Source: Lachnospiraceae bacterium (GTDB lineage: Bacteria > Bacillota > Clostridia > Lachnospirales > Lachnospiraceae). Taken from it: 40,568 bases of DNA. Location of the stretch: NCBI GenBank assembly GCA_017405805.1, contig JAFQZU010000004.1, forward strand, positions 70,379 to 110,946. Reading direction: 5' to 3'. Of this stretch, positions 4,377 through 31,816 are shown in pieces; the stretch's first letter is position 1, and the number at the start of each line of letters is the position of its first letter. A model generated the notes under the pieces. The model was not told the DNA's origin. It searched no databases and saw nothing but the letters and a program-made list of their open reading frames with translations. Position numbers and translations under genes: made by a program.

Positions 4377-4383
4377 AGAGACT

Positions 4384-5388: not shown

Positions 5389-5395
5389 GGAAGGT

Positions 5396-6232
5396 ATGGC
5401 GAAAAAACTGATCTTTTTGGATATCGACGGGACACTTACCGAGCCGGGCTCCAATGAGCCGCCGGCCAGCGCGCTGGAGGCCATTCGCGCCGCCAGAAGG
5501 AACGGGCACAAGGTGTTTTTGTGCTCGGGACGCAATCCCGGTATGCTGGCACCGCTCCTGCGGTTTGATTTTGACGGGTATATCTCGAGCGCGGGCGGCT
5601 ATATCGTGGTCGGGGACCAGGTGATCTATGACTGCCCGATGCCAGGAGAGGAGTCGGAGAGGGCGCTGGAGCTGCTTCACGAAAGCGGCGTCTTCTGCAC
5701 GGTAGAATCCCGCGACAAAACATGGGGAGACGAGGATCTCGGCGACTTTTTGAGCGGCGCCGGGGCCGGCGGCGGCAACAGCGAGATCGAGCGCTGGAGA
5801 AAGGCGCTGGCGGGAAGTCTGAATATCCGCCCCATGCATGAGTATGCGGGAGAGCCGCTCTACAAGATCGTGGTCATGTGCCTGTCGCCCGAACAGCTGG
5901 CGCCGGCAAGGAAGGAGCTGGAGGACCGCTACAACTTCTGCATCCAGGAGATCACGGATCCCGCCCACCCGTGTCTCAACGGGGAGCTGATCAACCGGCA
6001 GTTCGACAAGGGGCGGGGCGTCCTGCGCGTCTGCGAGTATCTGGGGGCGGACGTAAAGGATACGATCGGTTTTGGCGACAGCATGAACGACCTCGAGATG
6101 ATCGAGACCGTGGGCACCAGCGTGTGCATGGACAACGGCAGCAGCGCGCTGAAGAAGATCAGCGACCGGGTCTGTCCGGCCGTCTCGCAGGACGGGCTTG
6201 CCCGGGAGTTCGAGGCGCTGGGACTGGTCTGA
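5396..6232 (+). CDS. Cof-type HAD-superfamily phosphatase
   Basis: Magnesium-dependent phosphatase of the HAD class IIB (Cof) group, 278 residues. Motif I is FLDIDGTL with Asp9 as nucleophile and Asp11 as acid/base; motif II is LCSGR; the conserved Lys lies in the cap/core junction (about residue 200); motif IV is GFGDSMNDLEM. The C2-type cap domain lies between motifs II and III. Family members dephosphorylate sugar phosphates or flavin and pyridoxal phosphates; sucrose-phosphate and trehalose-phosphate phosphatases belong to the same class. It follows the LacI gene by 7 bases with AAGGAAGG as ribosome site and precedes a disaccharide-type PTS permease, so a sugar-phosphate substrate is likely. 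Substrate is not readable from the sequence. Confidence 0.85.
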   Translation: MAKKLIFLDIDGTLTEPGSNEPPASALEAIRAARRNGHKVFLCSGRNPGMLAPLLRFDFDGYISSAGGYIVVGDQVIYDCPMPGEESERALELLHESGVFCTVESRDKTWGDEDLGDFLSGAGAGGGNSEIERWRKALAGSLNIRPMHEYAGEPLYKIVVMCLSPEQLAPARKELEDRYNFCIQEITDPAHPCLNGELINRQFDKGRGVLRVCEYLGADVKDTIGFGDSMNDLEMIETVGTSVCMDNGSSALKKISDRVCPAVSQDGLAREFEALGLV

Positions 6233-6267
6233 GCGCGAAGTCAGGCGATTGCATTTTCGGAGGAACA

Positions 6268-6291
6268 GATCCCGCAAAGAGGGGCGGGATC
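6268..6291 (+). promoter_or_regulatory. Hairpin in the leader of the PTS gene
   Basis: A perfect 8-bp inverted repeat, GATCCCGC-AAAGAGGG-GCGGGATC, lies in the 122-base gap between the phosphatase and the PTS gene. No T-run follows, so it is not a standard terminator. It may affect RNA stability or processing, or partly attenuate transcription. Role unknown. Confidence 0.35.
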
Positions 6292-6354
6292 CTGCGGCGC
6301 CGGATGTAATGATAAAGCAACTATGAAACAATCAGGGAAAGAGGAGGAAAGAAA

Positions 6355-8235
6355 ATGGCTCTGGATTACCGTAAATGCGCCCAGGAAATCTCCGACAACA
6401 TCGGAGGCGGCGCAAACGTAGTCTCGGCAGCGCACTGCGCTACGCGCCTTCGCCTTGTTATCGCGGATAACGGAAAGGTAAACAAGGCGGCGCTGGAGGA
6501 GGTCGACGGCGTCAAGGGTATGTTCGAATCCAACGGACAGCTCCAGCTGATCATCGGCACAGGTACAGTTAACAAGGTTTTTGATGAATTTATTGCGATC
6601 ACGGGCGTGGCGGCCGGCACCAAGGACGATGTCAAGGCGGCTGCGGCGGCCAAACAGCCCATCTGGAAACAGGCACTGAAAACGGTCGGCGACGTCTTCG
6701 TCCCGATCCTGCCCGCCATCGTGGCGTCCGGTCTGATGATGGGTCTGGTCGAGGCACTCGGTAAAGCGATCCCGTCTTTTGCCGGGTCCGACTGGTACTC
6801 GTTCCTGGATACCGTGGCAAATACCGCTTTCGCGTATCTGCCCGTCATTGTGGCCATTTCCGCGGCCCGCGTATTCGGCGGCAACCTGTTTTTGGGCGCC
6901 GTCATCGGTCTTCTCATGATCCACTCCGCCTTCCTGAACGGCTGGAACGTGGCAAATACGGAGGCCATCAACGCCTTCTTCGGCGTGACGGACGGCGTGA
7001 TCCCCAAGTGGCACCTGCTCGGGAATATCGTCACGATCCAACAATCAGGCTATCAGGGCCACGTCATACCGGTCATTATTGCGGTATTCCTTATGAGCAA
7101 GATCGAAAAGTGGCTGCATAAGCATGTGCCGGAGATGATCGATCTTTTCGTTACGCCTCTCACCACTGTTTTTGTTACGGCCCTCCTCACGCTCTGGATC
7201 ATCGGCCCCATCTTCGCAAAGGCCGAGACTCTGGTGCTTGCAGGCGCGCAGATCCTTGTCAGGAACCCGTTCGGAGCCGGTGTCATGGGTGCCCTTTATC
7301 CCTGGACCGTGGTCATGGGTCTGCACCATATGTACAACGTCATTGAGGCAGGCATGCTTTCCGTCGAGGGCGGCCTCAACACCTGGATGCCCATCGCCTC
7401 GGCAGCCAACTTCGCCCAGTTCGGCGCGTGTCTTGCCGTAGGTATCAAGTGCGTCAGCCAGAAGACCAAGTCCGTGGCAGTCCCTTCGTCCCTGTCCGCG
7501 GCGCTGGGCATCACGGAACCCGCGATCTTCGGTGTGAACATGCGCTTCTTCAAGCCCTTCATCGCCGGTATGATCGGCGGCGCCATCGGCGCGCTCGTGG
7601 CTGCGTTTATGGGAATCGGCGCCTCCGCTTACGGCGTGACCGGCATTCCGGGCTATCTGACCATCAATAACCCGCTGCTTTACACGATCGTTCTGGCCAT
7701 CTCCGGCGGCATCGCTTTCGTGATCACGACCGTGATCTGGAAAGAGGAAGTGAAGCCGGTCAAGGCGGCCGAGCCCGCACCGGAGGTCAAGGCTCCCACG
7801 GAAGCGGTCATCAGCTGTGAAGCGGGCAAAGTCATTGCCCCTGCCATCGGCGAAGTGATCGCCAGAGAGGACATCCCGGATGACACCTTCGCATCCGGCG
7901 TCCTGGGTGACGGCGTCGGGATCAATCCCACCGAGGGCGTCATATTTGCGCCTTTTGACGGAGAAGTCACCTCTGTCGCGGAATCCAGGCATGCGATCGG
8001 CCTCTCCAACGACGCGGGCATGGAAGTGCTGATCCACGTCGGCGTGGATACGGTGGCCATGAACGGCGACGGCTTCGCGCCCACGGTCGAGGAGGGCGAC
8101 AAGGTCAAGGCGGGAGATCTGATCATGACCTTTGACCGCGACAAGATCAAAGCGGCTGACCATCCGGACTGTGTAGTCGTGCTGCTGACCAACTCCGACG
8201 ACTACAGCGATGTCAAGGCGGGCGCAGGCGTCTGA
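6355..8235 (+). CDS. PTS EIIBCA permease, sucrose/trehalose/beta-glucoside type
   Basis: Membrane permease that imports and phosphorylates a sugar. Domain order is B-C-A in 626 residues. IIB (1-85) has the phosphorylated Cys28 in AHCATRLRL; IIC (about 105-465) has some ten membrane segments and the signature GITEPAIFGVN; a Pro/Ala/Glu-rich linker precedes IIA, with His546 and phosphorylatable His561 in LIHVGVDTV. The 15-residue spacing of the two histidines equals that of His75/His90 in E. coli IIAGlc. The ribosome site is GAGGAGG. The sequence style fits sucrose or trehalose permeases, and the upstream amylosucrase-like gene favours sucrose, but specificity is an inference. Genes for HPr and EI follow directly, so the whole phosphorelay is encoded here. 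No GH32 sucrose-6-phosphate hydrolase is present in the window. Confidence 0.9.
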   Translation: MALDYRKCAQEISDNIGGGANVVSAAHCATRLRLVIADNGKVNKAALEEVDGVKGMFESNGQLQLIIGTGTVNKVFDEFIAITGVAAGTKDDVKAAAAAKQPIWKQALKTVGDVFVPILPAIVASGLMMGLVEALGKAIPSFAGSDWYSFLDTVANTAFAYLPVIVAISAARVFGGNLFLGAVIGLLMIHSAFLNGWNVANTEAINAFFGVTDGVIPKWHLLGNIVTIQQSGYQGHVIPVIIAVFLMSKIEKWLHKHVPEMIDLFVTPLTTVFVTALLTLWIIGPIFAKAETLVLAGAQILVRNPFGAGVMGALYPWTVVMGLHHMYNVIEAGMLSVEGGLNTWMPIASAANFAQFGACLAVGIKCVSQKTKSVAVPSSLSAALGITEPAIFGVNMRFFKPFIAGMIGGAIGALVAAFMGIGASAYGVTGIPGYLTINNPLLYTIVLAISGGIAFVITTVIWKEEVKPVKAAEPAPEVKAPTEAVISCEAGKVIAPAIGEVIAREDIPDDTFASGVLGDGVGINPTEGVIFAPFDGEVTSVAESRHAIGLSNDAGMEVLIHVGVDTVAMNGDGFAPTVEEGDKVKAGDLIMTFDRDKIKAADHPDCVVVLLTNSDDYSDVKAGAGV

Positions 8236-8329
8236 GATTTACGCAAATGAAAAAATGTCAGATTGGTGTAATTGTTTTAAATATCTGTAAAAGTTGCACA
8301 CAATAACTGCTAAACAAGGCGATTTATAG

Positions 8330-8335
8330 TATAAT
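8330..8335 (+). promoter_or_regulatory. -10 element of ptsHI promoter
   Basis: A perfect TATAAT lies in an AT-rich stretch 74 bases before ptsH, contrasting with the GC-rich coding sequence around it. No convincing -35 is seen 16-18 bases upstream. It implies that ptsHI can be transcribed separately from the permease gene. Confidence 0.5.
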
Positions 8336-8408
8336 ATTTTTGGATTTTTGGAAATTCGGAGAAAAATTCCGGGTTAGTAGCAGTGATTTTACAAAAAAGG
8401 AGAAAAAA

Positions 8409-8666
8409 ATGAAAGAAATTCTTTTCACAGTAACAGATCCTCTCGGAATTCATGCGCGTCCCGCTGGCATTCTGGTAAAAGAAGCGAAGAAATTCGGCAG
8501 CTCGATCACTGTTTTCAAAGGCGACAAGAGCTGTGACATGAGAAAGCTTCTTGCCCTGATGGGCCTGGCAGTCAAGCAGAACGACGAGATCACTGTCCGG
8601 ATCGAAGGCGACGATGAAGAGGCCTGCGCGGCAGCGATCGAGAAATTCCTGAAAGAGAATTTCTAA
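8409..8666 (+). CDS. ptsH: HPr phosphocarrier protein lacking Ser46
   Basis: Cytoplasmic phosphocarrier of 85 residues that passes phosphate from EI to EII proteins. His15 lies in the canonical GIHARPAG motif. The second signature normally reads with a serine at position 46 (as in NLKSIMGVMSLG), the HPr kinase target; here it reads DMRKLLALMGLAV, placing Lys at position 46. The protein should therefore do phosphotransfer but not the Ser-phosphorylated co-repressor role with CcpA. ATG 8409 is set by AAAAAAGGAGAA and by the start of the HPr fold; the frame is open upstream to 8340. ptsI follows after 27 bases. Confidence 0.95.
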   Translation: MKEILFTVTDPLGIHARPAGILVKEAKKFGSSITVFKGDKSCDMRKLLALMGLAVKQNDEITVRIEGDDEEACAAAIEKFLKENF

Positions 8667-8693
8667 GAGAATTTCTGATTGGAGGAAAGAAGC

Positions 8694-10319
8694 ATGATTG
8701 TTGCAACCGGCAAAAGCATTTTGAACGGCATTGCGATCGGCAGGATCAAGATCTACAAGACGCCTGTCTTCGAGATCAACGAGGGAACGGCAGAGGATCC
8801 GGATGCGGAACTCAAGCGGTTCGAGGTTGCGCTGATGAAGGCGATCGAACAGCAGGGTACTCTCTATGAGAAGGCGCTCAAGGACGCCGGCGAAGAGAGC
8901 GCGGCGATTTTTGAAGCGCACCAGATGATGCTGGAGGACGACGATCTCCAGGATTCCACAAGGGAGATCATTACCGATCAGAAGCACACGGCGGAATATG
9001 CCGTCAAGACTGCTTTTGACAGCTATGCGCAGATGTTTGCGGAGATGGACGATCCCTACATGAGAGCGAGAAGCGCCGACCTGATCGACGTGGAGAACTC
9101 CGTGCTGGAATTCCTTATGGGAATGGATACGAGCAGCCTGCAGGGAACGGAGCCTTCCATCCTGGTGGCGGAAGATCTGGCGCCCTCGGAGACGGTCAAG
9201 CTGGATAAGTCGCTGCTTCTGGGCATGATCACCCGCGAAGGAAGCTCCAACAGCCACACCGCGATCCTTGCCAGAAGCATGAATCTCCCCTCGCTGATCC
9301 AGTGCAAGGAGATCGACGACAGCTGGGACGGCAAGATGGCCATCCTCGACGGCTATAACGCATGCGTTTACATCGATCCCACAGAGGAGATCATGAAGGA
9401 ACGCTCGGCCAAATACGAAGAGGATCTTCGCATGCGGAAAATGCTCCAGGAGCTCAAGGGGCAGGAGAGCGTTACCGCGGACGGCAGAAAGGTGCGCGTC
9501 TATGCCAATATCGGCGGACCGGAGGATATCGAGCGCGTCAATGAAAACGACGCAGAGGGCGTAGGCCTGTTCCGCTCCGAGTTCGTGTATCTCAACAGCA
9601 ATGAGGAGCCCTCCGAGGAATTCCAGTTCAACGCCTACAAGCGTGTAGTCGAGGCGCTTGCGCCCAGAATGGTCATCATCCGCACCTGCGACATCGGCGC
9701 GGACAAGACCATCGATTACATGAACCTGGACAAGGAGGAAAATCCTGCCCTCGGCTTCAGGGCCATCCGCATCTGCCTGACCAGGAAGGACTTCTTCAAG
9801 ACACAGCTCAGGGCGCTGCTGCGGGCAACCGCCTACGGCAATATGGGCATCATGTTCCCCATGATCATCAGCCGCTGGGAGCTGGTGGAAGCGAAGGAGC
9901 TTCTCGAGGAGTGCAAAAAAGAGCTTCTGGCGGAAGGCCATAAGATCGGCGAATATGAGCTGGGCATCATGGTCGAGACGCCTGCCGCCGTGCTCTGCGC
10001 GGATGAGCTGGCGGAGGAAGTGGACTTCTTCTCCCTGGGCACCAACGACCTGACGCAGTACGTGTGCGCGATCGACCGCCAGAATGCCAAACTGGAGAAA
10101 TTCTCCGACACACATCATCCTGCGGTCCTGAAGGCGATCCAGATGACCGTCGACGCCGGCCACAGGCACGGCACGTGGGTCGGAATCTGCGGCGAGCTGG
10201 GCGCGGACCCCACCCTCACGGAGACCTTCCTCCGCATGGGCGTGGACGAGCTCTCGGTCAACGCCACAAGCGTTCTGCCGCTGAGAAAGATCATCCGCAG
10301 CGCAGATCTGTCAAAATAA
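8694..10319 (+). CDS. ptsI: Phosphoenolpyruvate-protein phosphotransferase (Enzyme I)
   Basis: First enzyme of the PTS; takes phosphate from PEP and gives it to HPr in the cytoplasm. The N-terminal domain carries the active-site His188 in SSNSHTAILAR. The C-terminal PEP-binding barrel carries GVGLFRSEFVYL, the metal-binding stretch ELGIMVETPAA, FSLGTNDLTQY, and catalytic Cys499 in GICGELGADP. The length of 541 residues is slightly below the usual 570. ATG 8694 is chosen over the TTG at 8679 because GGAGGAAAG (8681-8689) then lies at correct distance. A short direct repeat, GAGAATTTCT, occurs twice in the gap after ptsH. A strong terminator follows. Confidence 0.95.
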   Translation: MIVATGKSILNGIAIGRIKIYKTPVFEINEGTAEDPDAELKRFEVALMKAIEQQGTLYEKALKDAGEESAAIFEAHQMMLEDDDLQDSTREIITDQKHTAEYAVKTAFDSYAQMFAEMDDPYMRARSADLIDVENSVLEFLMGMDTSSLQGTEPSILVAEDLAPSETVKLDKSLLLGMITREGSSNSHTAILARSMNLPSLIQCKEIDDSWDGKMAILDGYNACVYIDPTEEIMKERSAKYEEDLRMRKMLQELKGQESVTADGRKVRVYANIGGPEDIERVNENDAEGVGLFRSEFVYLNSNEEPSEEFQFNAYKRVVEALAPRMVIIRTCDIGADKTIDYMNLDKEENPALGFRAIRICLTRKDFFKTQLRALLRATAYGNMGIMFPMIISRWELVEAKELLEECKKELLAEGHKIGEYELGIMVETPAAVLCADELAEEVDFFSLGTNDLTQYVCAIDRQNAKLEKFSDTHHPAVLKAIQMTVDAGHRHGTWVGICGELGADPTLTETFLRMGVDELSVNATSVLPLRKIIRSADLSK

Positions 10320-10345
10320 AGGTACGGTCAGTACTTTCTGTAAGC

Positions 10346-10377
10346 GCCATATCGGGGAGGCATCTCCCCGATATGGC
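10346..10377 (+). terminator. Terminator of ptsHI
   Basis: A perfect 14-bp stem (10346-10359 with 10364-10377) closes a four-base loop GCAT and is followed by ATTTTAC. The T-run is short, but the stem is long and GC-rich and sits 26 bases after the ptsI stop. Confidence 0.8.
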
Positions 10378-10385
10378 ATTTTACT

Positions 10386-10423
10386 ATACCGGCTCCCGCT
10401 CCACATATGGAGCGTTCCGGTAT
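10386..10423 (+). repeat. Second imperfect hairpin after ptsI
   Basis: ATACCGG (10386-10392) pairs with CCGGTAT (10417-10423), and inside it CGCTCCA pairs with TGGAGCG around a CATA loop. No T-run follows. It may be a 3'-end stabiliser or back-up terminator. The next 140 bases are AT-rich and hold the upstream side of the sigma-54 promoter; nothing else was seen there apart from a TTTACGGGCAAAA at 10531-10543 that resembles the operator half-sites further on. Confidence 0.4.
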
Positions 10424-10565
10424 CAAAACACTCATATTTGAAGCACTTCTCATAAAATTCCACAATTTTCCGGAAAAATTAATAGTCATTTTATAAAATT
10501 TTCCCAACTAAAAATGCGATGAGGACGGCGTTTACGGGCAAAATAGGCAGTTACGGCGCCTTTTT

Positions 10566-10581
10566 TGGCATGCCTATTGCT
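10566..10581 (+). promoter_or_regulatory. Sigma-54 (-24/-12) promoter of the CoA operon
   Basis: TGGCAT-GCCTA-TTGCT closely matches the RpoN consensus TGGCAC-N5-TTGCW, with the invariant GG and GC doublets exactly 12 bases apart. Predicted start is near 10592, giving a leader of about 75 bases before the crotonase gene. Such promoters need an AAA+ activator; two are encoded at 32523 and 34289. Confidence 0.8.
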
Positions 10582-10605
10582 ACTAATTACCATGAAACCT
10601 TTTGC

Positions 10606-10631
10606 TGCCCGTAAAAATGGGTATACGGGCA
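10606..10631 (+). promoter_or_regulatory. Palindromic operator-like site TGCCCGTA-N10-TACGGGCA
   Basis: A perfect 8-bp inverted repeat with a 10-base spacer. An extra half-site, TACGGGCA, occurs upstream at 10533-10540. The spacing suits a dimeric helix-turn-helix protein such as the Fis-type domain of a sigma-54 activator. The palindrome lies just downstream of the predicted transcription start, an unusual place for an activator site, so it could instead be repressive or work on RNA. Confidence 0.55.
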
Positions 10632-10667
10632 ATGTGTAATCAGTTCTACTGAAGAAAGGGGGACATT

Positions 10668-11474
10668 ATGGGTAAATTATTTGAACAGGCAGCTGCAAGC
10701 GCGCAGAACGTTGCCGGAGCAATGGACGGGGCGGTCGCGATCCTGACGATGAATCGTCCGAAAGCGATGAACGCATTGAATGACCAGACCCTCGGCGAGC
10801 TCGACGCGTATTTTACGGCGATCGCTGAGGATGAGGATATTCTGGGTGTAATTATCACCGGAAACGGAAAAGCTTTTGTCGCGGGCGCGGACATCAGCCA
10901 GATGCAGCCCTATGGCGCTGCGGAAGGCAGAAAGTACGCAGATCGCGCACAGACCCTTTTCAGCAAGATCGAGTGCACTGAGAAGCCCGTCATCGCTGCG
11001 GTCAACGGCTATGCGCTTGGCGGCGGGTGCGAGCTCTCCATGAGCTGCGATATCAGGATCGCTTCCGAGAAGGCAGTCTTCGGACAGCCGGAAGCCAACC
11101 TCGGCCTGATCCCCTGCTTCGGCGGCACGCAGAGACTTTCCAGACTTGTCGGCACGGGCATCGCAAAAGAGCTGATCTATACCTGCCGTCAGGTCAAGGC
11201 AGATGAGGCAAAAGAGATCGGCCTCGTCAACAAAGTCGTTCCTGCGGATGAGCTTATGAACGAAGCAAAGGCCATGATGGACATGATCCTTCTTCGCTCC
11301 CCTGTTGCGATCGCGTACTGCAAAGTCGCCATCAACCGCGGCGTGGACACCGACCTGCGCAATGGTCTCGAGATCGAGAAGGACTGCGCGGCAGTCGTAT
11401 TCAGTACCGAGGACAAGCAGGAAGGCGTCAATGCATTCCTGGAGAAGAGAAAACCCGTGTTCAAGAACCGCTAA
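10668..11474 (+). CDS. Enoyl-CoA hydratase/3-hydroxyacyl-CoA dehydratase (crotonase family)
   Basis: Interconverts a 3-hydroxyacyl-CoA and a 2-enoyl-CoA in the cytoplasm. The 268-residue protein has the crotonase fold: oxyanion-hole segment KAFVAGADISQM, then ALGGGCELSMSCDIRIA and FGQPEANLGLIPCFGG. Both catalytic glutamates are present, Glu122 and Glu142, with the 20-residue spacing of classical hydratases (144/164 in the rat enzyme), so hydration/dehydration is expected rather than another crotonase chemistry. GAAAGGGGG precedes the ATG. First gene of the sigma-54 operon; a permease, CoA-transferase and acyl-CoA dehydrogenase follow. Role is comparable to CaiD of carnitine metabolism or Crt of butyrate formation; the acyl group is unknown. 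Confidence 0.9.
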   Translation: MGKLFEQAAASAQNVAGAMDGAVAILTMNRPKAMNALNDQTLGELDAYFTAIAEDEDILGVIITGNGKAFVAGADISQMQPYGAAEGRKYADRAQTLFSKIECTEKPVIAAVNGYALGGGCELSMSCDIRIASEKAVFGQPEANLGLIPCFGGTQRLSRLVGTGIAKELIYTCRQVKADEAKEIGLVNKVVPADELMNEAKAMMDMILLRSPVAIAYCKVAINRGVDTDLRNGLEIEKDCAAVVFSTEDKQEGVNAFLEKRKPVFKNR

Positions 11475-11562
11475 TCGTTTTGAAAGTCATTTGAAAATCA
11501 CTCATTAATTTGACACGGCAGGTTTCACTACAGAATATAACAGAGAAATGGAGTAAAACTAT

Positions 11563-12879
11563 ATGAATACACTAGGCATTATTGGTATAGTGCTTGCCTT
11601 TGCTTTGCTGATGTTCCTTATCATGCGAAACCTCAATCTGTATCTTACGGTTTTCATCTGCGTGGTAGTCGTTATCGTCTTCAACACGCTTTCTCCTTAT
11701 GAGACTTTCAAAGATACATACATGACCGGTTTCGTAGGATTCTTTAAGAATTATTTCTTACTGTTCCTGGCAGGCACAGTTCTTGCGAAATTCATGGACA
11801 TCACCAACGCCGCGAGAAGTATCGCCCAGACCATCATCAAGAAAATCGGTAAAGACTGGGCCTTCGTATCCGTCCCGATCGCATGCGCGATCCTTTCCTA
11901 CGGCGGCGTTTCCGCACACGTCGGTGCGTTCTGCGTCTTCGCGATCGCTCTGGAGATCTGGCGTGAAGCGGATCTTCCCAGACGCGCCCTTCCCGGCACC
12001 CTGTTCTTCGGCGTTGCGACCTTCGGTATGATCGCGCCCGGCGCGGTGCAGATCCACAACGCGGTTCCGGCGACCAACCTCGGCACCAGCTACATGGCAG
12101 GCGCGGTAGTCGGTTTCATCTCCATCGCCTTCATGGGTATTGCAGGTATCGCTTACCTTAAGTTCTGGCTTGACAAAGCTGTCAAGAACGGCGAGCATTT
12201 CGTGGAAAGAGCGGACGACGATTTCACGACGGACGACGCCGCAGCGCTTCCCAATTTCGGTATTGCGCTGCTCCCGCTCATCATTTGTATCGTCCTGGTC
12301 AATGTCAAGATCGGTGGAAACAGCTTCCCCGTAGAAGCGGCTGTCTTTATCGCAGCTCTGTCTGCGCTGGCGCTTATGTGGAAGTATATCGATAAGAAAA
12401 AGCCCCTTCAGACTTCCTTCCAGGAAGCGCTGACGACGGCCATCATCTCCGTTTCCAACACCTGCTGCGTCGTTGGTTTCGGTGCTGTCGTTTCCTCGAC
12501 CGAAGCGTTCCAGGATATCGTTCAGATCATGCTTAACATCCCCGGCCCCAGGCTCCTTTCGCTGCTCATCGGTACCACCGTTATCTGCGGTATCTGCGGA
12601 AGTGCTTCCGGCGGTCTGGGCATCGCGGTTCCGATCCTCGGTCCCGTGTACACGCAGATGGGAATTTCCCCTGCCATCGTACACCGCGTCATGAGCCTTT
12701 CCTCTTCGGCTCTCGACTCTCTGCCGCACAACGGCGTCGTCGTCACGATCACGACCGGTCTTTGCAAAGAGACCCATCGCGATTCCTACGGCCTCACCTG
12801 TGTCCTCAGTGTCGTGATCCCGTTCATCGGCTCGCTGATCGGCGTCATACTGTTTACATTGTTCCCCGGTCTGCCGTAA
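11563..12879 (+). CDS. GntP-family carboxylate permease
   Basis: Integral membrane symporter of 438 residues with about twelve hydrophobic segments; the family carries gluconate and related hydroxy- or keto-acids, and some members carry 3-hydroxybutyrate. Visible family features include the N-terminal MNTLGIIGIVLAFALLMFLI helix, SYGGVSAHVGAF, FGMIAPGAVQIHNAVPATNLGTSYMAGA, and SSSALDSLPHNGVVV near the C-terminus. GGAG lies 10 bases before ATG 11563. It sits between the crotonase and CoA-transferase genes, so it most likely imports the acid that the transferase activates. The hydroxycarboxylate substrate is inferred from this context. Confidence 0.85.
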   Translation: MNTLGIIGIVLAFALLMFLIMRNLNLYLTVFICVVVVIVFNTLSPYETFKDTYMTGFVGFFKNYFLLFLAGTVLAKFMDITNAARSIAQTIIKKIGKDWAFVSVPIACAILSYGGVSAHVGAFCVFAIALEIWREADLPRRALPGTLFFGVATFGMIAPGAVQIHNAVPATNLGTSYMAGAVVGFISIAFMGIAGIAYLKFWLDKAVKNGEHFVERADDDFTTDDAAALPNFGIALLPLIICIVLVNVKIGGNSFPVEAAVFIAALSALALMWKYIDKKKPLQTSFQEALTTAIISVSNTCCVVGFGAVVSSTEAFQDIVQIMLNIPGPRLLSLLIGTTVICGICGSASGGLGIAVPILGPVYTQMGISPAIVHRVMSLSSSALDSLPHNGVVVTITTGLCKETHRDSYGLTCVLSVVIPFIGSLIGVILFTLFPGLP

Positions 12880-12978
12880 TTCCAGACCCGTCATATTGAT
12901 TGATGCTTGCTGCGGGGTCCGCTTCGGAATGCGGCGGACTCCCGCGATATGTGCAGTATTCCGGAAAGAGAGGTTATA

Positions 12979-14214
12979 ATGTTCCAGCCGTTAAAAGGTG
13001 TTAAGGTTATCGATCTTACTTATTTTGTCGCAGGACCCGGCGCAGCCAGAATCCTTGCGGACTGGGGCGCAGACGTCATCAAGGTAGAGCCCGGCTTCGG
13101 TGATCCCGGACGCGGCACCGGCGCTACCATGTCCTGCCCGACCGAGAAGGACTGCAACCCCTTCTATACCATTTATAATATGAACAAGAGAGGCATCGCT
13201 CTCAACCTCAAGAAAGAGGAAGGAAAAGCTATCCTCGACAAAATTCTGGAAACAGCAGATGTTTTCGTGAGCAGCTACAGGACGGGCGCCCTGAAGCGTC
13301 TGGGCCTGGATTATGACTCACTGAGCAAGAAATTCCCGCACCTGATCTGGGCGCAGATCAATGGTTTTGGCGATTTCGGCCCCGCCAAGGACAACGCCGG
13401 ATTTGATACGGTCGCGTTCTGGGCGCGCTCCGGCGCAATGATCGACCTCACGGAGAAGGACACGAGCCCCATCAACCCGCTGATCGGCTTCGGCGACGCT
13501 ACGACCTCCTGCTCGCTGGCAGGCGGCATCTCCGCAGCGCTTTATCAGAAGGCCAAGACCGGCAAGGGCTGCAAGGTCATGATCTCCCTGTTCGGCCAGG
13601 CGATCTGGAGTGAGAGCGCGGGCATGGTCTCCGTCCAGTACGGCGACGAGTATCCCAAGACCCGTCTCAATCCCGGCAGCCCCGTCATGGACACCTACTG
13701 CAGCTCCGACGGCAAGTGGTTCTACATGAGTATCCTGGAGCCCGACCGCTACAACAACAAGCTCTTTGAAGAGCTGGGCCTCAATGACCTGATCGACAAT
13801 CCGGATTACTGCACGGCAGCCGGATCCAAGGCTCATTCCAAAGAGCTGGTCAGCATCCTGGCTCCCGCTTTTGCCAAGTTCACAATGGAACAGATCGAAG
13901 GGATCTTCGCACGTGCCGACATCGCGTACGACCACGTCCAGCACATCAGCGAAGTCGTGAACGATCCGCAGGCGCTGGAGAACAAGTACATCGTACCGTT
14001 CGCCAACAATGACGGAACCATCACAAAGCAGCCCACGACTCCCATCCGCTTCACACTCACTGAGCCCAAGAGCGTTGAGGACATCGCTCCCACGCTGGAC
14101 CGCCAGGCTCCCATGATCGGCGAGCATACGGTCGAAGTCCTCAAGGAGTACGGATATGCGGACGACGTCATTCAGAAATATATTGAAGACGGCGTTGTGA
14201 CTGTGACAAAATAA
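12979..14214 (+). CDS. Class III (CaiB/BaiF) CoA-transferase, FldA/HadA-like
   Basis: Moves CoA between an acyl-CoA donor and a carboxylic acid. The 411-residue protein begins FQPLKGVKVIDLTYFVAGPGAARILADWGADVIKVE, the family N-terminal signature, and has the catalytic aspartate candidate Asp173 in GFGDATTS, matching the GLGDHQAG region of phenyllactate CoA-transferase FldA. The C-terminal part (IGEHTVEVLKEYGY) is also typical. ATG 12979 follows GAAAGAGAGG; the frame is open to 12907 but without family similarity. No 2-hydroxyacyl-CoA dehydratase gene (HadBC/FldBC) follows, so the partner chemistry here is the crotonase and acyl-CoA dehydrogenase, as in the Cai pathway. The acid is not identified. 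Confidence 0.88.
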   Translation: MFQPLKGVKVIDLTYFVAGPGAARILADWGADVIKVEPGFGDPGRGTGATMSCPTEKDCNPFYTIYNMNKRGIALNLKKEEGKAILDKILETADVFVSSYRTGALKRLGLDYDSLSKKFPHLIWAQINGFGDFGPAKDNAGFDTVAFWARSGAMIDLTEKDTSPINPLIGFGDATTSCSLAGGISAALYQKAKTGKGCKVMISLFGQAIWSESAGMVSVQYGDEYPKTRLNPGSPVMDTYCSSDGKWFYMSILEPDRYNNKLFEELGLNDLIDNPDYCTAAGSKAHSKELVSILAPAFAKFTMEQIEGIFARADIAYDHVQHISEVVNDPQALENKYIVPFANNDGTITKQPTTPIRFTLTEPKSVEDIAPTLDRQAPMIGEHTVEVLKEYGYADDVIQKYIEDGVVTVTK

Positions 14215-14261
14215 AAGTGTCACTGTAAGACTTGGACCTCAGAAAGGAGGCGGAATACCCT

Positions 14262-15401
14262 ATGGCAATTATTATGACTGAAGACCAGAGGACAATGGTC
14301 GAACTCGCGAAACAGTTTGCGGAAAAAGAGATCGCTCCCTATTCCCAGGAGATGGACGAGACCGGCGTAATGCGCCACGAGATCGTCGAGAAGATGGCCG
14401 AGCTTGGCTTTATGGGCATCAACATCCCCGAGGAGTACGGCGGAGCAGGCCTTGACGAGATCACCAAGGTCCTGGTCATCGAGGAGATCGCAAAGGTCGA
14501 CGCATCGGTGGCGGAGCTCCTTTCCGTGCACACTCTGGTCAATGACATTTTCCTGAAACAGGCCAACGAGGAGCAGAAGAAGAAATATCTCGCGATGGCC
14601 AGCGAAGGCAAGATCGGCGCTTTCGCGCTGACAGAGCCCGGCGCGGGTTCCGACGCGGCGGCAGCCAAGACGAAAGCGATCGTCGACGGCGATGACTATG
14701 TCATCGACGGCACAAAGTGCTTCATCTCCAACATGGGCCCCAACGAGGGCGACTATGTCGTGGTGATCGCGCTGACAGAACCCGAGAAGAAGACAAAAGG
14801 CATGTCTGCCATTATCGTCGACCGCGGTACGCCCGGCTTCTCCGTCGGCAAGACAGAGAACAAGATGGGCCTTCGCGCAGCACCGGTATCCGAGCTGATC
14901 TTCGAGAACTGCCGTGTTCCCAGATCCAATCTGATCGGACAGGAAGGCAGAGGCTTTATGATCGCCATGGCAGCGCTTGACGGCGGCCGTATCGGCATGG
15001 GCGCGCAGGCAGTCGGCATCGCGGAAGGCGCGATCGAGGCAGCCGTGAAGTATTCCCACGAGCGTATCCAGTTCGGCAAACCGATCAACGCAAACCAGGG
15101 TATCCAGTGGTATCTGGCCGACATGGCGACCACGACCGAAGCTGCCAAGCTCCTTGTCTGGAACGCAGCCAATCTCCGTCAGAACGGGATCAACATCAAC
15201 AAGGAAGCGGCAATGGCGAAATACTATGCCTCCGAGAACGCGGTGGCAGTCTGCCACAAGGCCCTTCAGATCCACGGCGGCTACGGCTACATGAAGGACT
15301 ATGCGATCGAGCGCATGTACAGAGACGCACGTATCGTTCCTCTGTACGAAGGAACTTCCGAAGTGCAGAAGATGGTCATTTCCAGGGCGGTCATCAAGTA
15401 A
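14262..15401 (+). CDS. Acyl-CoA dehydrogenase / enoyl-CoA reductase
   Basis: FAD enzyme of 379 residues that oxidises acyl-CoA or, with low-potential electrons, reduces enoyl-CoA. FAD-binding stretch ALTEPGAGSDAA, substrate-loop CFISNMG, and ALQIHGGYGYMKDY are present; the catalytic base is Glu363 in LYEGTSEVQ, the position used by short-chain dehydrogenases. AGAAAGGAGG (14241-14250) supports ATG 14262. It is last in the sigma-54 operon, 47 bases after the CoA-transferase. No etfAB genes are in the window, so electron-transfer flavoproteins must be encoded elsewhere. The analogy is CaiA (crotonobetainyl-CoA reductase) or butyryl-CoA dehydrogenase. Confidence 0.92.
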   Translation: MAIIMTEDQRTMVELAKQFAEKEIAPYSQEMDETGVMRHEIVEKMAELGFMGINIPEEYGGAGLDEITKVLVIEEIAKVDASVAELLSVHTLVNDIFLKQANEEQKKKYLAMASEGKIGAFALTEPGAGSDAAAAKTKAIVDGDDYVIDGTKCFISNMGPNEGDYVVVIALTEPEKKTKGMSAIIVDRGTPGFSVGKTENKMGLRAAPVSELIFENCRVPRSNLIGQEGRGFMIAMAALDGGRIGMGAQAVGIAEGAIEAAVKYSHERIQFGKPINANQGIQWYLADMATTTEAAKLLVWNAANLRQNGININKEAAMAKYYASENAVAVCHKALQIHGGYGYMKDYAIERMYRDARIVPLYEGTSEVQKMVISRAVIK

Positions 15402-15433
15402 AGCTGAGAACGCCGTAAAGTAAAAACAGCCCG

Positions 15434-15484
15434 GAACGGTTCGGCATTTCCCCCTTTTTGGAAATGCCGGGCCGTTCTTTTTTT
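15434..15484 (+). terminator. Terminator of the CoA operon
   Basis: An 18-bp stem (15434-15451 with 15460-15477), continuous if two G-U pairs are allowed, closes an 8-base loop and runs into eight T residues. It lies 32 bases after the acyl-CoA dehydrogenase stop and closes the four-gene unit. Confidence 0.92.
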
Positions 15485-15628
15485 AAAATCATTAATTTTT
15501 TAAGAAGTCCATCTTTTTCTGTATCAAAAACGATAAAATTGCGTTAGAATTAATAAGGCGTAAGCACACGGCGACTGCCTGTTGTGAGGATGTATTTCGA
15601 GATTTGAAAAGTGAAGGAGGATACTTCA

Positions 15629-16066
15629 ATGGCAGAAAAAGGTAATAAGCTCAGTGACGGCCTCAAGAAATTCTTACTGGTAGGCATCGGCGCAGCGGCG
15701 ACCACGGTGGAGAAATCCCAGGAGATCATCGAGGATCTGGCAAAGAAGGGCGAGATCACGGTAGAGCAGAGCAAGGATCTGCAGCAGAACATGCGCAACA
15801 TGTTCGAGAAGACCGGCAACGACGCCGAGGAGCTGGCAAAGAAGCTGGCTAAGCTTCCCGAGGAGCAGCTCGACAACGTGAGAAAGCTCATGGAGGACAT
15901 CAAGAAGAAGGCGGAAGAAGCCAAGGCTGAGGAAGAGGCGGAGCTCGCTGAGGAAGAGCTCGAGAAGGCCGAGGAGGAGATGTACAAGGAAGAGGGCGCT
16001 CCTTCGGTGCCGCTTGAAGCGCCGGCAGAGGAGAAGCCTGAGGAAGAGGAGAAGGCTGAGGCCTGA
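15629..16066 (+). CDS. Phasin-like acidic coiled-coil protein
   Basis: Protein of 145 residues resembling the short Firmicutes proteins annotated as polyhydroxyalkanoate-synthesis regulator/phasin. A small hydrophobic patch (KFLLVGIGAAATTVEKSQE) leads into an amphipathic helical region (to about residue 90) and then a Glu/Ala/Lys-rich tail. GAAGGAGG lies just before ATG 15629; a TAGAAT at 15545-15550 may be its -10. It is flanked by terminators on both sides, so it is a single-gene unit. No PHA synthase is in the window, so a granule role is not supported here. A membrane- or surface-associated helical protein is as much as the sequence shows. Confidence 0.65.
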   Translation: MAEKGNKLSDGLKKFLLVGIGAAATTVEKSQEIIEDLAKKGEITVEQSKDLQQNMRNMFEKTGNDAEELAKKLAKLPEEQLDNVRKLMEDIKKKAEEAKAEEEAELAEEELEKAEEEMYKEEGAPSVPLEAPAEEKPEEEEKAEA

Positions 16067-16100
16067 TCGGATCCGTATCGGATATTTGGATAAGATGTGA

Positions 16101-16132
16101 GCAGGGGGTGCCGGACGGCACCCCCTGCTTTT
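16101..16132 (+). terminator. Terminator of the phasin-like gene
   Basis: A perfect 12-bp stem, GCAGGGGGTGCC with GGCACCCCCTGC, closes the loop GGAC and is followed by TTTT. It lies between the convergent phasin-like and murG genes. Confidence 0.9.
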
Positions 16133-16169
16133 GCGTTGGATCTCTGCTTTGGATTGACCGGCGCATTCA

Positions 16170-17252
16170 TCAGCGTTTTCCGGTCACTTCCCGGATCAGC
16201 CCCATAATGATGGGGATCGCCTCGCTCTGGCTGCTCTTTGCCATGGCTTCTTCATAGCGCTCGCGCCCGCTGTAGAGCTCGTCGAGTTTTTGCACGATAC
16301 AGCCCTCCAGCGCGGCATTTTCCACCACCATGCTGTAGCCGAGCTTTTCGAAGGAGCGCGCGTTGAGGATCTGGTCTCCGCGGCTGCCGCCTGTGGGGAG
16401 CGGCACGAGAAGATTGGGCTTGCGCAGGGCCAGGATCTCGCAGATGGCGTTGGCGCCGGCCCTTGAGAGCATGAGGTCCGCGGCTGCGAAGAGATCCGGC
16501 AGTTCGTCGGAGATGTACTCGAACTGAACATATCCGGCGCGGTCCTTCAGGGCCTCGTCCAGCTTGCCCTTGCCGCACAGGTGCACGATCTGAAAGCGCG
16601 CAAGCAGTTCGTCCAGGTGCGCGCGCACGGCGTCGTTTACGGCGGCGGCGCCCTGGCTGCCGCCCATGATCATGAGGACGGGTTTATCTTCGGTAAAACC
16701 GCACATGGCAAGGCCTCTGCGCCTGTCTCCGTGAAAGAGACCCTCGCGGATGGGCGTCCCGGTCAGGACCGCCTTGCCGGGGGGCAGCATTTCCACGGTT
16801 TCGGGAAAATTGCAGCAGATCTTTTCGGCACTGCCAAAACAGAGTTTGTTGGCCAGACCCGGCGTCATGTCCGACTCGTGGATGATGCAGGGGATGCGCA
16901 GGGCGTGGGCCGCGCGCACGACGGGCACGCTGACGTATCCGCCCTTGGAGAAGACGACGTCCGGCTTATACTGTTTGAGAAAGCGCTTTGCCTCCCTGTA
17001 TCCGCGGATCACGCGGAAGGGATCCGTGAAATTCTTCCAGTCAAAATAGCGGCGCAGCTTTCCCGTGGAGATGCCGGTATAGGGGAGCTCCGGAAGATCC
17101 GCCAGGATCGTCTTCTCGATCCCGGTCTTGCTGCCCACGTAGGCCGCCTCGAAGCCCTCTTCGAGCAGATGGGGAAGAAGGGCGAGGTTGGGCGTGACAT
17201 GACCGGCGGTGCCGCCGCCGGTCAGAACGATCTTCGGGTGGTTTGCTGACAT
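16170..17252 (-). CDS. murG: UDP-N-acetylglucosamine transferase MurG
   Basis: Peripheral membrane glycosyltransferase that adds GlcNAc to lipid I to make lipid II in peptidoglycan synthesis. The 360-residue protein has the N-terminal glycine-rich loop TGGGTAGHVTPN, VVFSKGGYVSVPVV and IIHESDMTPGLANK in the acceptor domain, and MGGSQGAAAVN plus LSRAGANAICEILAL with LVPLPTGGSRGDQ in the UDP-GlcNAc domain. ATG at 17252 is chosen because GAGGGGGGA lies 7 bases before it; the frame extends to 17276 within the upstream gene. It is 16 bases after the TSCPD gene, likely one transcript, and lies outside the usual division/cell-wall cluster. Confidence 0.95.
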   Translation of the reverse strand: MSANHPKIVLTGGGTAGHVTPNLALLPHLLEEGFEAAYVGSKTGIEKTILADLPELPYTGISTGKLRRYFDWKNFTDPFRVIRGYREAKRFLKQYKPDVVFSKGGYVSVPVVRAAHALRIPCIIHESDMTPGLANKLCFGSAEKICCNFPETVEMLPPGKAVLTGTPIREGLFHGDRRRGLAMCGFTEDKPVLMIMGGSQGAAAVNDAVRAHLDELLARFQIVHLCGKGKLDEALKDRAGYVQFEYISDELPDLFAAADLMLSRAGANAICEILALRKPNLLVPLPTGGSRGDQILNARSFEKLGYSMVVENAALEGCIVQKLDELYSGRERYEEAMAKSSQSEAIPIIMGLIREVTGKR

Positions 17253-17268
17253 AGGACATTCCCCCCTC

Positions 17269-17514
17269 TCACGCACCGATTGCCTTTCGGAGCGCCTTGG
17301 ACAGCTGGTCGGGGCAGGAGGTGCTCTTGAAGCCGCAGCGGGTTCCCTCGAGTGTCTCGATGACCTCTTCCGCCTTGCGGCCTACCACCAGTTTGCTGAT
17401 CCCCTGCAGGTTGCCGTTGCAGCCGCCGTGGAAGGCGACGCTCCGGATGATGTGATCCTGATCCACGTCGAGGTCGATCAGGGAAGCGCAGGTTCCTCTT
17501 GTTCTGTATAACAT
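17269..17514 (-). CDS. TSCPD-domain protein (TIGR03905-type)
   Basis: Small protein of 81 residues containing the TSCPD motif as STSCPDQLSKAL near the C-terminus. Upstream it has FHGGCNGNLQGISKLV, and both cysteine-bearing blocks match short stand-alone TSCPD proteins common in Clostridia. The domain also occurs at the end of some ribonucleotide reductases, where cysteines bind metal or undergo redox changes; the function of stand-alone proteins is not established. AAAGGAATGG precedes ATG 17514. It heads a two-gene minus-strand unit with murG. Confidence 0.75.
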   Translation of the reverse strand: MLYRTRGTCASLIDLDVDQDHIIRSVAFHGGCNGNLQGISKLVVGRKAEEVIETLEGTRCGFKSTSCPDQLSKALRKAIGA

Positions 17515-17564
17515 GGGTGATCCATTCCTTTCGTTTATGGTGAATCGTCTGTTTTTGCGGTTAC

Positions 17565-17592
17565 ATTGTAACAGATTACTCCGTCTTTGCAA
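17565..17592 (-). promoter_or_regulatory. Promoter of the TSCPD-murG unit
   Basis: On the minus strand TTGCAA (17592-17587) and TACAAT (17570-17565) are 16 bases apart. The -10 lies within a small palindrome, GTTACATTGTAAC (17560-17572), which could be an operator. Confidence 0.55.
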
Positions 17593-17600
17593 AGGCGGGG

Positions 17601-17629
17601 TTCACAGGGGACGAAATATCCAGTAAAAT
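17601..17629 (+). promoter_or_regulatory. Promoter of pyk
   Basis: TTCACA (17601-17606) and TAAAAT (17624-17629) are separated by 17 bases, each five of six to consensus. Start is expected near 17636, about 50 bases before pyk. The divergent TSCPD promoter lies immediately to the left. Confidence 0.65.
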
Positions 17630-17687
17630 ATTACTACTATGGTTAAATATGGTAAAAGGGGTATTATCGGTATAAAAGGAGAGGACA

Positions 17688-19106
17688 ATGAGAAAAACGA
17701 AGATTATCTGCACGATCGGTCCGTCGTCTGAGAGCGAGGAGATGCTTGAGCAGCTCATGAAAGCAGGCATGAATGTCGCCCGTTTCAACTTCTCGCACGG
17801 CACGCACCAGGAGCATGAAGCAAAATTCCGGCGCGCAGTGAAAGTGCGCCGCAGACTGGGGCTGCCCGTGGCCATGCTGCTGGATACCAAGGGACCGGAG
17901 ATCCGGCTGCGCGATTTTGAAAACGGAAAGGTCACACTGCTTGAGGGGAATACCTTTACGCTTACGACCGAGGAGATCATGGGCACCGAGGAGCGCGCGT
18001 CCATTACCTATAAAGGGCTTCCCGGCGATGTGCACGAGGGGATGACCATCCTGATCGATGACGGCCTCATCGAACTGCAGGTGGACAGCGTGACCGATAC
18101 GGATATCGTCTGCACCGTCATCAACGGCGGCCCGGTCTCCAACCACAAGGGGATCAACGTGCCCGGCGCGGAGCTTTCGCTTCCTTTTGTCAGCAAACAG
18201 GACAAGGAGGATATCGAGTTCGGCTGCAGGATGGGCTATGACTTCATCGCCGCTTCCTTTACCCGCACGGCGGACGACATCCGGGAGATCAAGGCGATCC
18301 TGAAGGCCAACAGGAGCCGGATGAAGATCATCGCCAAGATCGAGAACATGCAGGGCGTAAGAAATCTGCACGAGATCCTGGAGGAGGCGGACGGCGTCAT
18401 GGTCGCGCGCGGCGACCTGGGCGTCGAGGTTCCGCTGGAAGAAGTCCCGGTCATCCAGAAGCGGATGATCCACATCGCGGACGACATGGGCAAGATCGTC
18501 ATCACGGCCACCCAGATGCTGGATTCCATGATGCACAATCCCCGACCCACCCGCGCGGAGGCGACGGACGTGGCCAACGCCATCTATGACGGCACGACGG
18601 CCATCATGCTCTCGGGAGAGACGGCGGCAGGAAAGTATCCGCTGGAAGCGGTGCGCACCATGGCCAGGATCGCGGAGCGCGCGGAGAAGGATATCCGCTA
18701 CCAGGAGATCGCAAGGCATTCCTTTAAGGACGAGCTGACCGATATCACCACGGCGATCTCCCACGCCACCTGCACGGTGGCCCAGGACATCGGGGCCCAG
18801 GCGGTCATCACCGTGACCATGTCCGGCTTTACCGCGGAGAGAGTTTCCAGATTCCGTCCCACCTGCCCGATCATCGCCTGCGCCACCAACGAGAGAGTGG
18901 CCAGCCAGATGAACCTGCTTTTTGGCGTGCATCCGCTGCTGATCCCGGAGGAGGACAGGGAGGAGATGCTTTTTGACGCGGCAGTCTGGGCGGCGAGAAA
19001 CGCGGGCTATGTCAGCGTGGGAGACAAGGTCGTCCTCACGGCAGGCGTGCCGCTGGGCGTGGCAGGCAACACCAACATGACGAGGGTCATTGAGATCACC
19101 GACTGA
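17688..19106 (+). CDS. pyk: Pyruvate kinase
   Basis: Glycolytic enzyme that turns PEP and ADP into pyruvate and ATP. The 472-residue protein has MRKTKIICTIGPSS at the start, RFNFSHG, LLDTKGPEIR, the catalytic-lysine stretch KIIAKIENMQG, VMVARGDLGVE, and TATQMLDSM with PTRAEATDVANAI. Glu in TKGPEIR predicts a potassium-dependent enzyme. It lacks the extra C-terminal PEP-utiliser-like domain of Bacillus-type enzymes, ending after the regulatory domain. AAAGGAGAGG precedes the ATG. The guanylate-kinase-like gene starts 53 bases later with no terminator, so it may lead the holB-ricT-rsmI transcript. Confidence 0.96.
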   Translation: MRKTKIICTIGPSSESEEMLEQLMKAGMNVARFNFSHGTHQEHEAKFRRAVKVRRRLGLPVAMLLDTKGPEIRLRDFENGKVTLLEGNTFTLTTEEIMGTEERASITYKGLPGDVHEGMTILIDDGLIELQVDSVTDTDIVCTVINGGPVSNHKGINVPGAELSLPFVSKQDKEDIEFGCRMGYDFIAASFTRTADDIREIKAILKANRSRMKIIAKIENMQGVRNLHEILEEADGVMVARGDLGVEVPLEEVPVIQKRMIHIADDMGKIVITATQMLDSMMHNPRPTRAEATDVANAIYDGTTAIMLSGETAAGKYPLEAVRTMARIAERAEKDIRYQEIARHSFKDELTDITTAISHATCTVAQDIGAQAVITVTMSGFTAERVSRFRPTCPIIACATNERVASQMNLLFGVHPLLIPEEDREEMLFDAAVWAARNAGYVSVGDKVVLTAGVPLGVAGNTNMTRVIEITD

Positions 19107-30344: not shown

Positions 30345-30572
30345 ATCCATACAGGGGAGTAACTATTTTTGAGCGAGTGTTAGTCTCACTTAGGCCGTTT
30401 GCGTACGGCGGGGAGGCCGAGGGTGCGCGGCTCCCGCGTGCCCGAGTGGAGGGGTGTCTGAGCCCTCCGGTCATCAGAGCGGAGGGCGAGTTCCCGACTT
30501 GCCTCCCCGCCGTGCGGAAAGGGTCTTAGTGAGACTTACGCTCGCGATTGATAGTTACTCCCCTGTATGGAT
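30345..30572. repeat. 228-bp imperfect palindromic element
   Basis: The outer 22 bases (30345-30366, beginning ATCCATACAGGGG) are a perfect inverted repeat of 30551-30572. Moving inwards, 30373-30393 pairs with 30524-30544 with three mismatches, then TACGGCGGGGAGGC near 30404-30417 pairs with GCCTCCCCGCCGTG at 30501-30514. The centre holds further GC-rich hairpins (GGAGGG with CCCTCC). It lies between convergent genes, starting three bases after the CdaR-like stop, and its right part encodes the last 15 or so residues of the radical SAM protein. It has no gene of its own. A non-autonomous mobile element or large structured RNA/terminator are the main options. Confidence 0.8.
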
Positions 30573-31590: not shown

Positions 31591-31816
31591 AAAAAAAAAG
31601 AACACCCTGCTCCGTACGGCGGAACCCTGACACGGTACTGCGTTTCCAGCTCCGCCAGGCACCCTCACGGCACATGAAAGGGCCCGCTTAGTGCTGCTTT
31701 GTTCCCAATCTGACACGGTTCACAGGGATTCATTGCGTGAGACCCGAGCTTCAACACGGAAAACGGCAGGCAGCTGTCAGGATTCCGCCCTGCAGAGCAG
31801 GGCTGTTTTATTTTGT
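31591..31816 (-). ncRNA. ffs: Signal recognition particle RNA
   Basis: RNA scaffold of the SRP that targets membrane proteins. On the minus strand the conserved S-domain reads GTGTCAGATTGGGAACAAAG then CAGCACTAAG, with a GGAA tetraloop closed by UUG/CAA, a covarying version of the usual CCGGAAGG, and the Cys-loop-like ACAAAGCAGCAC side. The flanking GTGCCGTGAGGGTGCCTGG is also typical. The 5' and 3' ends pair (CCCTGCTC with GAGCAGGG, and GGCGGAATCCTGACA with TGTCAGGGTTCCGCC), giving the long Firmicutes form with an Alu domain, about 225 bases. It ends in a run of nine T residues. It lies directly downstream of tadA, the usual place in Firmicutes. Ends are estimated to within several bases. 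Confidence 0.9.

Follow-up and report, generated by a model that had tools for sequence, protein, structure and literature searches.

A 40,568-nucleotide stretch of a Lachnospiraceae bacterium genome (hereafter the window; bases 70379-110946 of contig 19, JAFQZU010000004.1, in the assembly GCA_017405805.1, which is 2.05 Mb in size and 84% complete) carries an operon of four genes behind a sigma-54 promoter. The genes encode a crotonase-family enoyl-CoA hydratase/dehydratase, a GntP-family permease, a class III CoA-transferase and an acyl-CoA dehydrogenase (ACD). We interpret the operon as serving the fermentation of a short-chain 3-hydroxy acid under sigma-54 control. The most likely acid is 3-hydroxypropionate, and we put the chances of this interpretation at about even. 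This acid is proposed because of the model scores of the ACD, an operon of like make-up in Anaerostipes rhamnosivorans, and a further module on contig C17 of the same genome. The operon family is present across several families of anaerobes, including Clostridioides difficile. The assignment of a regulator, a candidate binding site for it and a sharper substrate hypothesis are new here.

Operon, promoter and distribution

The four genes lie on the plus strand between the ptsI terminator (10346-10377) and an intrinsic terminator at 15433-15478 (plus strand, 19 pairs plus a T-run). The crotonase (10668-11474) matches PF00378 with 249 bits and has Glu122 and Glu142. The permease (11563-12879) scores 38.7 bits on PF02447, above the gathering score of 22.5, and 35.8 bits on the gntP subfamily model (cut-off 293), which makes it a distant member of the GntP family. 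The transferase, with ATG 12979 as the best start and its end at 14214, belongs to class III by its PF02515 score (296.5 bits, gathering score 23.3) and its catalytic Asp173. The ACD (14262-15401) has Glu363 in the motif YEGTSE, next to Tyr362. The preliminary description of this DNA placed the four genes and these catalytic residues between a near-consensus -24/-12 site and a strong terminator, and coordinates, family models and residue indices confirm it. The terminator folds with -33 kcal/mol compared to -15.8 for shuffled sequences (z -5.9). Other plus-strand terminator-like sites within the operon have 5 to 7 pairs and are weak; terminator-like sites number 10 in total (shuffle mean 6.0, sd 3.0). 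The four genes are probably transcribed as a single unit. No etfBA pair follows the ACD gene in this unit, and the two electron transfer flavoprotein (ETF) pairs of the genome sit on other contigs. An RnfD homologue is also present in the genome.

The promoter TGGCATGCCTATTGCT (10566-10581, plus strand) departs from TGGCACGN4TTGCW at one position. The pattern TGGCAYGNNNNTTGCW (TGGCAYGN4TTGCW) has four matches in the assembly and its reversed control has none; two of the other three matches (C10:8454 and C10:18746) precede modules of permease, class I CoA-transferase and ACD. The genome encodes rpoN and has seven strong matches to enhancer-binding proteins (EBPs), the activators of sigma-54 promoters.

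To find orthologous loci, named genomes were scanned with the window transferase aligned to its relative of 71% identity. Thirty-five loci were obtained, eight of which (L084-L090 and L092; 27-28% identity) were dropped before counting, leaving 27. A crotonase gene is present in all of these except L077, whose contig starts just upstream. With the window included, an ACD at least 56% identical follows the transferase in 18 of 28 loci, and a different ACD (40-47%) is linked in four (L069, L070, L072, L077). Five contigs (L061, L062, L064, L066, L067) end too early to show an ACD, so that the orthologous ACD comes next after the transferase at 18 of 23 visible sites. The full gene order is common to the window and the Clostridioides loci L074, L075, L082 and L083. 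The pair etfBA follows the ACD in these four loci and in C. cadaveris, Anaerovorax, Peptoniphilus stercorisuis, E. yurii and UBA6113, as well as in Lachnospiraceae bacterium CE91-St61, Dorea sp. D27 and L065 (cut by the contig end). A more distant etfBA is found in L072. No etfBA was found after the ACD in the window, L060 or L093, and at least in L093 the sequence is long enough to show its absence.

In phylogenetic trees, the transferase orthologues form one group (support 95/90) separate from seven paralogues, and by this tree the own-genome transferases on C3 and C21 and those of L051, L052, L056 and L058 are paralogues. The ACD orthologues likewise form one group (98/95), which excludes the enzymes of Megasphaera and of own-genome contigs C14, C17 and C23 and includes the ACDs of C21 and C10.

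In the promoter scan, each upstream region of about 400 bp was represented by its best-scoring -24/-12 match, a T at position 6 costing half a mismatch, and a score of 2.5 or less was required. The scan covered 26 orthologous regions (L070 and L077 were left out), 21 of which have a site. Those without one are L059 and L061 (185 and 201 bp of upstream sequence, respectively), L069 of Megasphaera, L080 and L081. When three paralogous modules of the host genome are included, 24 of 29 regions reach the threshold; in 200 mononucleotide shuffles the number averaged 0.8 and never exceeded 4. These linkage and promoter counts are the opposite of unlinked genes and an unconserved motif in relatives, the outcome that the preliminary description named as contrary to its proposal.

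The operon is a patchy accessory module. It occurs in 5 of 60 genomes of the same genus besides the host (four at 94-96% identity, one at 52% in another context), in 1 of 119 of the family sample at orthologue level (71%, with the remaining matches at 35-42%) and in 1 of 390 of the class sample (61%). The four close same-genus matches are the same records as L059, L060, L061 and L093 and are not independent of the named loci; genome G071 is the same record as L091 (record identities were judged from matching coordinates and gene order). In L059, L060, L061 and L093, identity to the window is 94-96% for the transferase, 78-95% for the crotonase and 77-80% for the activator EBP1 described below. 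This uneven conservation possibly reflects gene replacement or recent transfer.

In Clostridioides, crt-gntT-caiB-bcd-etfAB has been assigned to the YctR regulon under butyrate/butanol synthesis (PMC6615313), and the C. difficile operon CD0800/crt1-CD0801-catB-bcd-etfBA2 has been listed with promoter TTGGCATAGTACTTGCTAT and activator CD0806/YctR, its entry in the sigL-mutant column being 'NR' (PMC7438776). The four-gene set was therefore already predicted in C. difficile, with a name-based label only in the portions of these two reports available to us. A literature search that covered few subscription journals found no other title on the operon. The C. difficile operon has the four genes in the same order, a sigma-54 promoter and a linked PAS/AAA+ activator of the same family. 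The Clostridioides Crt, CaiB and ACD proteins are 60-68% identical to those of the window, and the GntP is about 50% identical. In contrast, the window has no etfBA in the unit, its activator 17 kb away, another type of helix-turn-helix (HTH) in the activator and another palindrome upstream.

Activator and candidate binding site

Two tandem EBP genes lie on the plus strand of the window. EBP1 has a PAS domain and extends from a GTG at 32523 to 33980 (start chosen by inspection; the mechanical open reading frame begins at 32469), and EBP2 lies at 34289-35797. EBP1 is a homologue of the YctR-family activators. It is encoded 17 kb downstream of the operon; its orthologue adjoins the operon in L060, L091 and L093, and the tree groups it with these operon-adjacent EBPs (99/100). 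An EBP gene is found within the fetched stretch in 17 of the 27 orthologous loci. Among 61 genomes, EBP1 (80-100% identity, E<=1e-130) occurs in four of the five same-genus genomes with a close transferase and in none of the 56 others. The sole genome with a close transferase and no EBP1 match, G551, is an assembly that is 82% complete. Because of the tree grouping and this co-occurrence with the transferase, EBP1 is the likely activator of the operon despite its distance, a conclusion drawn from sequence comparison. A role for EBP2 in the operon is doubtful. Among the 61 genomes, EBP1-query matches at the same E-value to EBP2 were obtained in the host genome only, so EBP2 is less likely to be the cognate regulator, and in the tree it has no supported joining with an operon-linked EBP (nearest L062, 59%).

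An exact palindrome, CGCTCCACATATGGAGCG, is located at 10397-10414 (plus strand), 151 bp upstream of the -24 box, and is a candidate upstream activating sequence. Both this site and EBP1 were overlooked in the preliminary description. In relatives with an EBP that shares the HTH type of EBP1, similar palindromes precede the operon. Palindromes were scanned for in 22 upstream regions including that of the window (L059, L061, L069, L070, L077 and L081 were left out), with patterns composed after inspection of the sequences, so the shuffle controls are illustrative and not blind. CGCTCCA-N4-TGGAGCG was found in 5 of 22 regions at up to three mismatches (shuffles: mean 0.17, maximum 3) and in 6 of 22 at up to four (mean 1.4, maximum 5). 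A second type, GTCTC-N6-GAGAC, was found in 12 of 22 at up to one mismatch (mononucleotide shuffles: mean 0.08, maximum 2).

The linked EBP has an HTH of the SVRKAA...VRKR type in seven operons (L060, L062, L063, L065, L091, L093 and the window). Six of these have the CGCTCCA palindrome at up to four mismatches and none has the GTCTC palindrome at up to two; the seventh, L093, has similar repeats just past 400 bp. Among ten operons with a GIHRS-like HTH, nine have the GTCTC palindrome at up to two mismatches (L068, L071, L074, L075, L076, L078, L079, L082 and L083), with L072 as the exception. L073 has the GTCTC palindrome and an unreadable HTH. The HTH type of the activator and the type of palindrome vary in step across relatives. 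Rarity of the palindrome is no evidence, since its core occurs at one place in the assembly and the reversed control pattern has two forward matches; the case for the site rests on position and comparison.

A second palindrome, TGCCCGTA-N10-TACGGGCA, lies at 10606-10631 (plus strand), with a half site TACGGGCA at 10533-10540. It occurs at this place only in the assembly. It was set aside as an activator site because it is downstream of the promoter and is lacking in the relatives inspected, save for a partial match in L059, and because the CGCTCCA palindrome fits better.

Palindromes similar to the candidate site also occur just after EBP genes in L093, L060 and, between EBP1 and EBP2, the window, where they could also be terminators. 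At 34024-34234 in the window, ahead of EBP2, a GCTCC...GGAGC hairpin with a T-run may be the EBP1 terminator, an activator site, or both. A -24/-12-like sequence, TGGCATAGAGATTGCC, is at 34219-34234.

Substrate and direction of the pathway

In the mechanism that we propose, the PAS domain of EBP1 would sense the acid or a related signal, and EBP1 would bind CGCTCCA-N4-TGGAGCG and open the -24/-12 promoter, a role for which comparison among relatives supports both site and regulator. The permease would import 3-hydroxypropionate, and the class III transferase would move CoA to it from the end product propionyl-CoA, so that activation would cost no ATP. The crotonase would then dehydrate the product to acryloyl-CoA, which the ACD would reduce to propionyl-CoA; the electrons would come from an ETF whose genes lie in another part of the genome. 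The CoA would be handed to the next substrate and propionate would exit, the net result being an electron sink. A sigma-54-controlled CoA loop of import, CoA transfer, dehydration and reduction, with no ligase in the unit, had been proposed in the preliminary description and is supported here as a conserved module.

The best curated model for the window ACD is acryloyl-CoA reductase (NF042972, AcrC of Clostridium propionicum). Its 554 bits are the highest among six ACDs of the host genome that were scored, the other five having 418-509 bits (the ACD search of this genome gave ten matches, including the query and a 43-residue piece). The Megasphaera ACD has 495 bits. Two orthologues pass the cut-off of 640, those of C. 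difficile L075 (692) and CE91-St61 (694). After LSxHT, the orthologous ACDs are one residue shorter than the five best Protein Data Bank matches and the host's own butyryl-CoA dehydrogenase (Bcd)-like enzyme on C23. This stretch presumably lines the acyl pocket, as in other ACD structures. The crotonases of the modules have PCFGGTQRL in 25 of 27 cases, and PGFGG or PGFAG instead in Megasphaera and in the paralogues on C17 and C21. Since the ACD is nearest to the acryloyl-CoA reductase family, it points to a C3 substrate and probably not to an aromatic or branched acid. Of the substrates suggested previously, a short 3-hydroxy acid is thus retained and a branched or aromatic analogue is disfavoured.

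Reduction is the probable direction, given presumed anaerobic life, linked ETFs in relatives and the CoA loop; for the EtfA encoded in the C. difficile module, the nearest match is CarE (418 bits), which belongs to the caffeyl-CoA reductase complex. The CarCDE caffeate reduction operon of Acetobacterium woodii, which acts on a different substrate, is a CoA-loop electron sink with an ACD-type reductase. To our knowledge it includes neither a crotonase nor a GntP permease.

The A. rhamnosivorans operon AR1Y2_1112-1117 converts 3-hydroxypropionate to propionate, comprises a permease, a class I CoA-transferase, a dehydratase, an ACD and EtfAB, and was up to 19-fold higher in co-culture (PMC7618129); work on inositol had appeared earlier (PMC8355322). 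Compared by the composition given in the available part of that report, the window operon shares the permease, CoA-transferase, dehydratase, ACD and reaction logic. It differs in its class III transferase, where Anaerostipes has an oxoacid (class I) transferase, and in having no EtfAB in the unit. The module on C17 of the host has the Anaerostipes composition, with crt and the transferase in reverse order.

Several observations weigh against this interpretation. The window ACD falls short of the acryloyl-CoA reductase cut-off, unlike that of C. difficile, as do those of Intestinimonas L068 (586 bits) and L093 (547), and the two that pass, out of all ACDs scored, both belong to the etfBA-bearing clade. 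The matches listed for the ACD include no butyryl-CoA dehydrogenase model, and the lead of acryloyl-CoA reductase may therefore reflect the lack of a competing model. In L091 the activator and the crotonase, permease and transferase genes are present, and no ACD follows the transferase. Given the C17 module, a second one for the same acid would be redundant. In CE91-St61 and Dorea sp. D27 no -24/-12 site was found in the roughly 400 bp before crt, and the inositol context of the CE91-St61 genes is ambiguous. Of the electron sink suggested in the preliminary description, the conserved module is supported; the ETF lies outside the unit and, as L091 indicates, reduction is not always built in.

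The main rival, which we consider rather unlikely, is a butyrate branch in which 3-hydroxybutyrate (or crotonate) would enter the cell, receive CoA from butyryl-CoA and, after dehydration, be reduced to butyrate. It agrees with the best model of the crotonase (short-chain-enoyl-CoA hydratase, 353 of 394 bits), with the closeness in sequence of Bcd-type enzymes (C. difficile Bcd chain 5ol2_C, 392 bits) and with the butyrate/butanol label of the C. difficile operon in the part of the source available (PMC6615313). However, the ACD orthologues separate from the Bcd-like C23 enzyme in the tree (98/95), are one residue shorter than Bcd near the presumed acyl pocket and include the two above the acryloyl-CoA reductase cut-off.

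Acrylate would suit the CoA loop and the family of the ACD as well as 3-hydroxypropionate does. Acrylate would then be imported by the permease, given CoA from propionyl-CoA and reduced, the crotonase would serve only for stray 3-hydroxypropionyl-CoA, and the operon would combine detoxification with an electron sink. This is improbable, because the crotonase gene is first in the operon and is the most conserved companion, which suggests that dehydration is required.

Orthologues of the crotonase, transferase, ACD and etfBA genes lie in an inositol cluster, without the GntP permease, in CE91-St61 (L080, 6105-20672) and Dorea sp. D27 (L081). This cluster has IolN and IolG above cut-off, an IolO-like gene below cut-off, and transaldolase-like and 2-hydroxy-3-oxopropionate-reductase-like genes, and it is possible that it encodes an unusual inositol route. 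IolN and IolO belong to a route through 5-keto-gluconate and tagaturonate, in which cleavage would give tartronate semialdehyde. For that reason, the inositol context is weaker as an argument that malonate semialdehyde, and from it 3-hydroxypropionate, is formed. The same cluster bears on the possibility that the substrate is a branched acid, for instance 3-hydroxyisobutyrate converted to isobutyrate via methacrylyl-CoA, or yet another 3-hydroxy acid, since the genes adjoin one for a beta-hydroxyacid dehydrogenase that also scores on the 3-hydroxyisobutyrate dehydrogenase model (199 of 292 bits). The best match of that enzyme is 2-hydroxy-3-oxopropionate reductase (240 of 341 bits), the context is inositol and not valine metabolism, and the ACD model indicates C3; we regard such a substrate as quite doubtful.

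Carnitine or crotonobetaine metabolism of the Cai type has the same three reaction types and is scarcely credible, being rejected on the scores of the CaiA model (206 of 540 bits for the ACD) and the CaiB model (133 of 413 for the transferase), and the GntP-type permease, the regulation and the lack of a ligase in the unit also differ. The view in the preliminary description that the substrate is not carnitine agrees with these scores. The likeness to the Cai operon that it drew extends to the reaction types; the ACD and the transferase both have closer relatives than CaiA and CaiB, and CaiD does not appear in the list for the crotonase, which gives 25 of 73 families.

If 3-hydroxypropionate is the substrate, the operon family would be connected with the gut cross-feeding on that acid described in the available part of PMC7618129. 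We offer more tentatively the wider possibility that the window and its relatives have a second, separately assembled 3-hydroxypropionate-to-propionate route, which is under sigma-54 control and uses a class III transferase in place of a class I enzyme. The parallel modules of the host (in the window, on C21, two on C10 and on C17) would then be interchangeable electron sinks for hydroxy acids or enoates, with sigma-54 acting largely as their switch, and the orthologous operon would allow C. difficile to use 3-hydroxypropionate made by gut neighbors, a capacity that would have gone unrecognized.

Other modules and neighboring features

The host genome has four further modules of CoA-transferase and ACD with a crotonase and/or a GntP permease: L040 at 9400-12661 (C21), L041 at 3166-8396 and 13440-18642 (both C10) and L044 at 5099-12414 (C17). 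An EBP gene adjoins the C21 module and each of the C10 modules, and all three are preceded by a -24/-12 match.

Elsewhere in the window, a palindromic element at 30345-30572 has outer arms of 22 bp that match perfectly and inner arms of 45 bp that match at 84%. It sits between a PucR-type regulator gene and a radical SAM gene and looks like a miniature mobile element; its exact 22-bp arm had no match in the 109 fetched loci. A bacterial large signal recognition particle RNA is encoded at 31605-31802 on the minus strand (100 bits). Beside EBP2, at 35896-39938 on the minus strand, are genes for two choline-binding-repeat proteins, one of which has a glucosaminidase domain.

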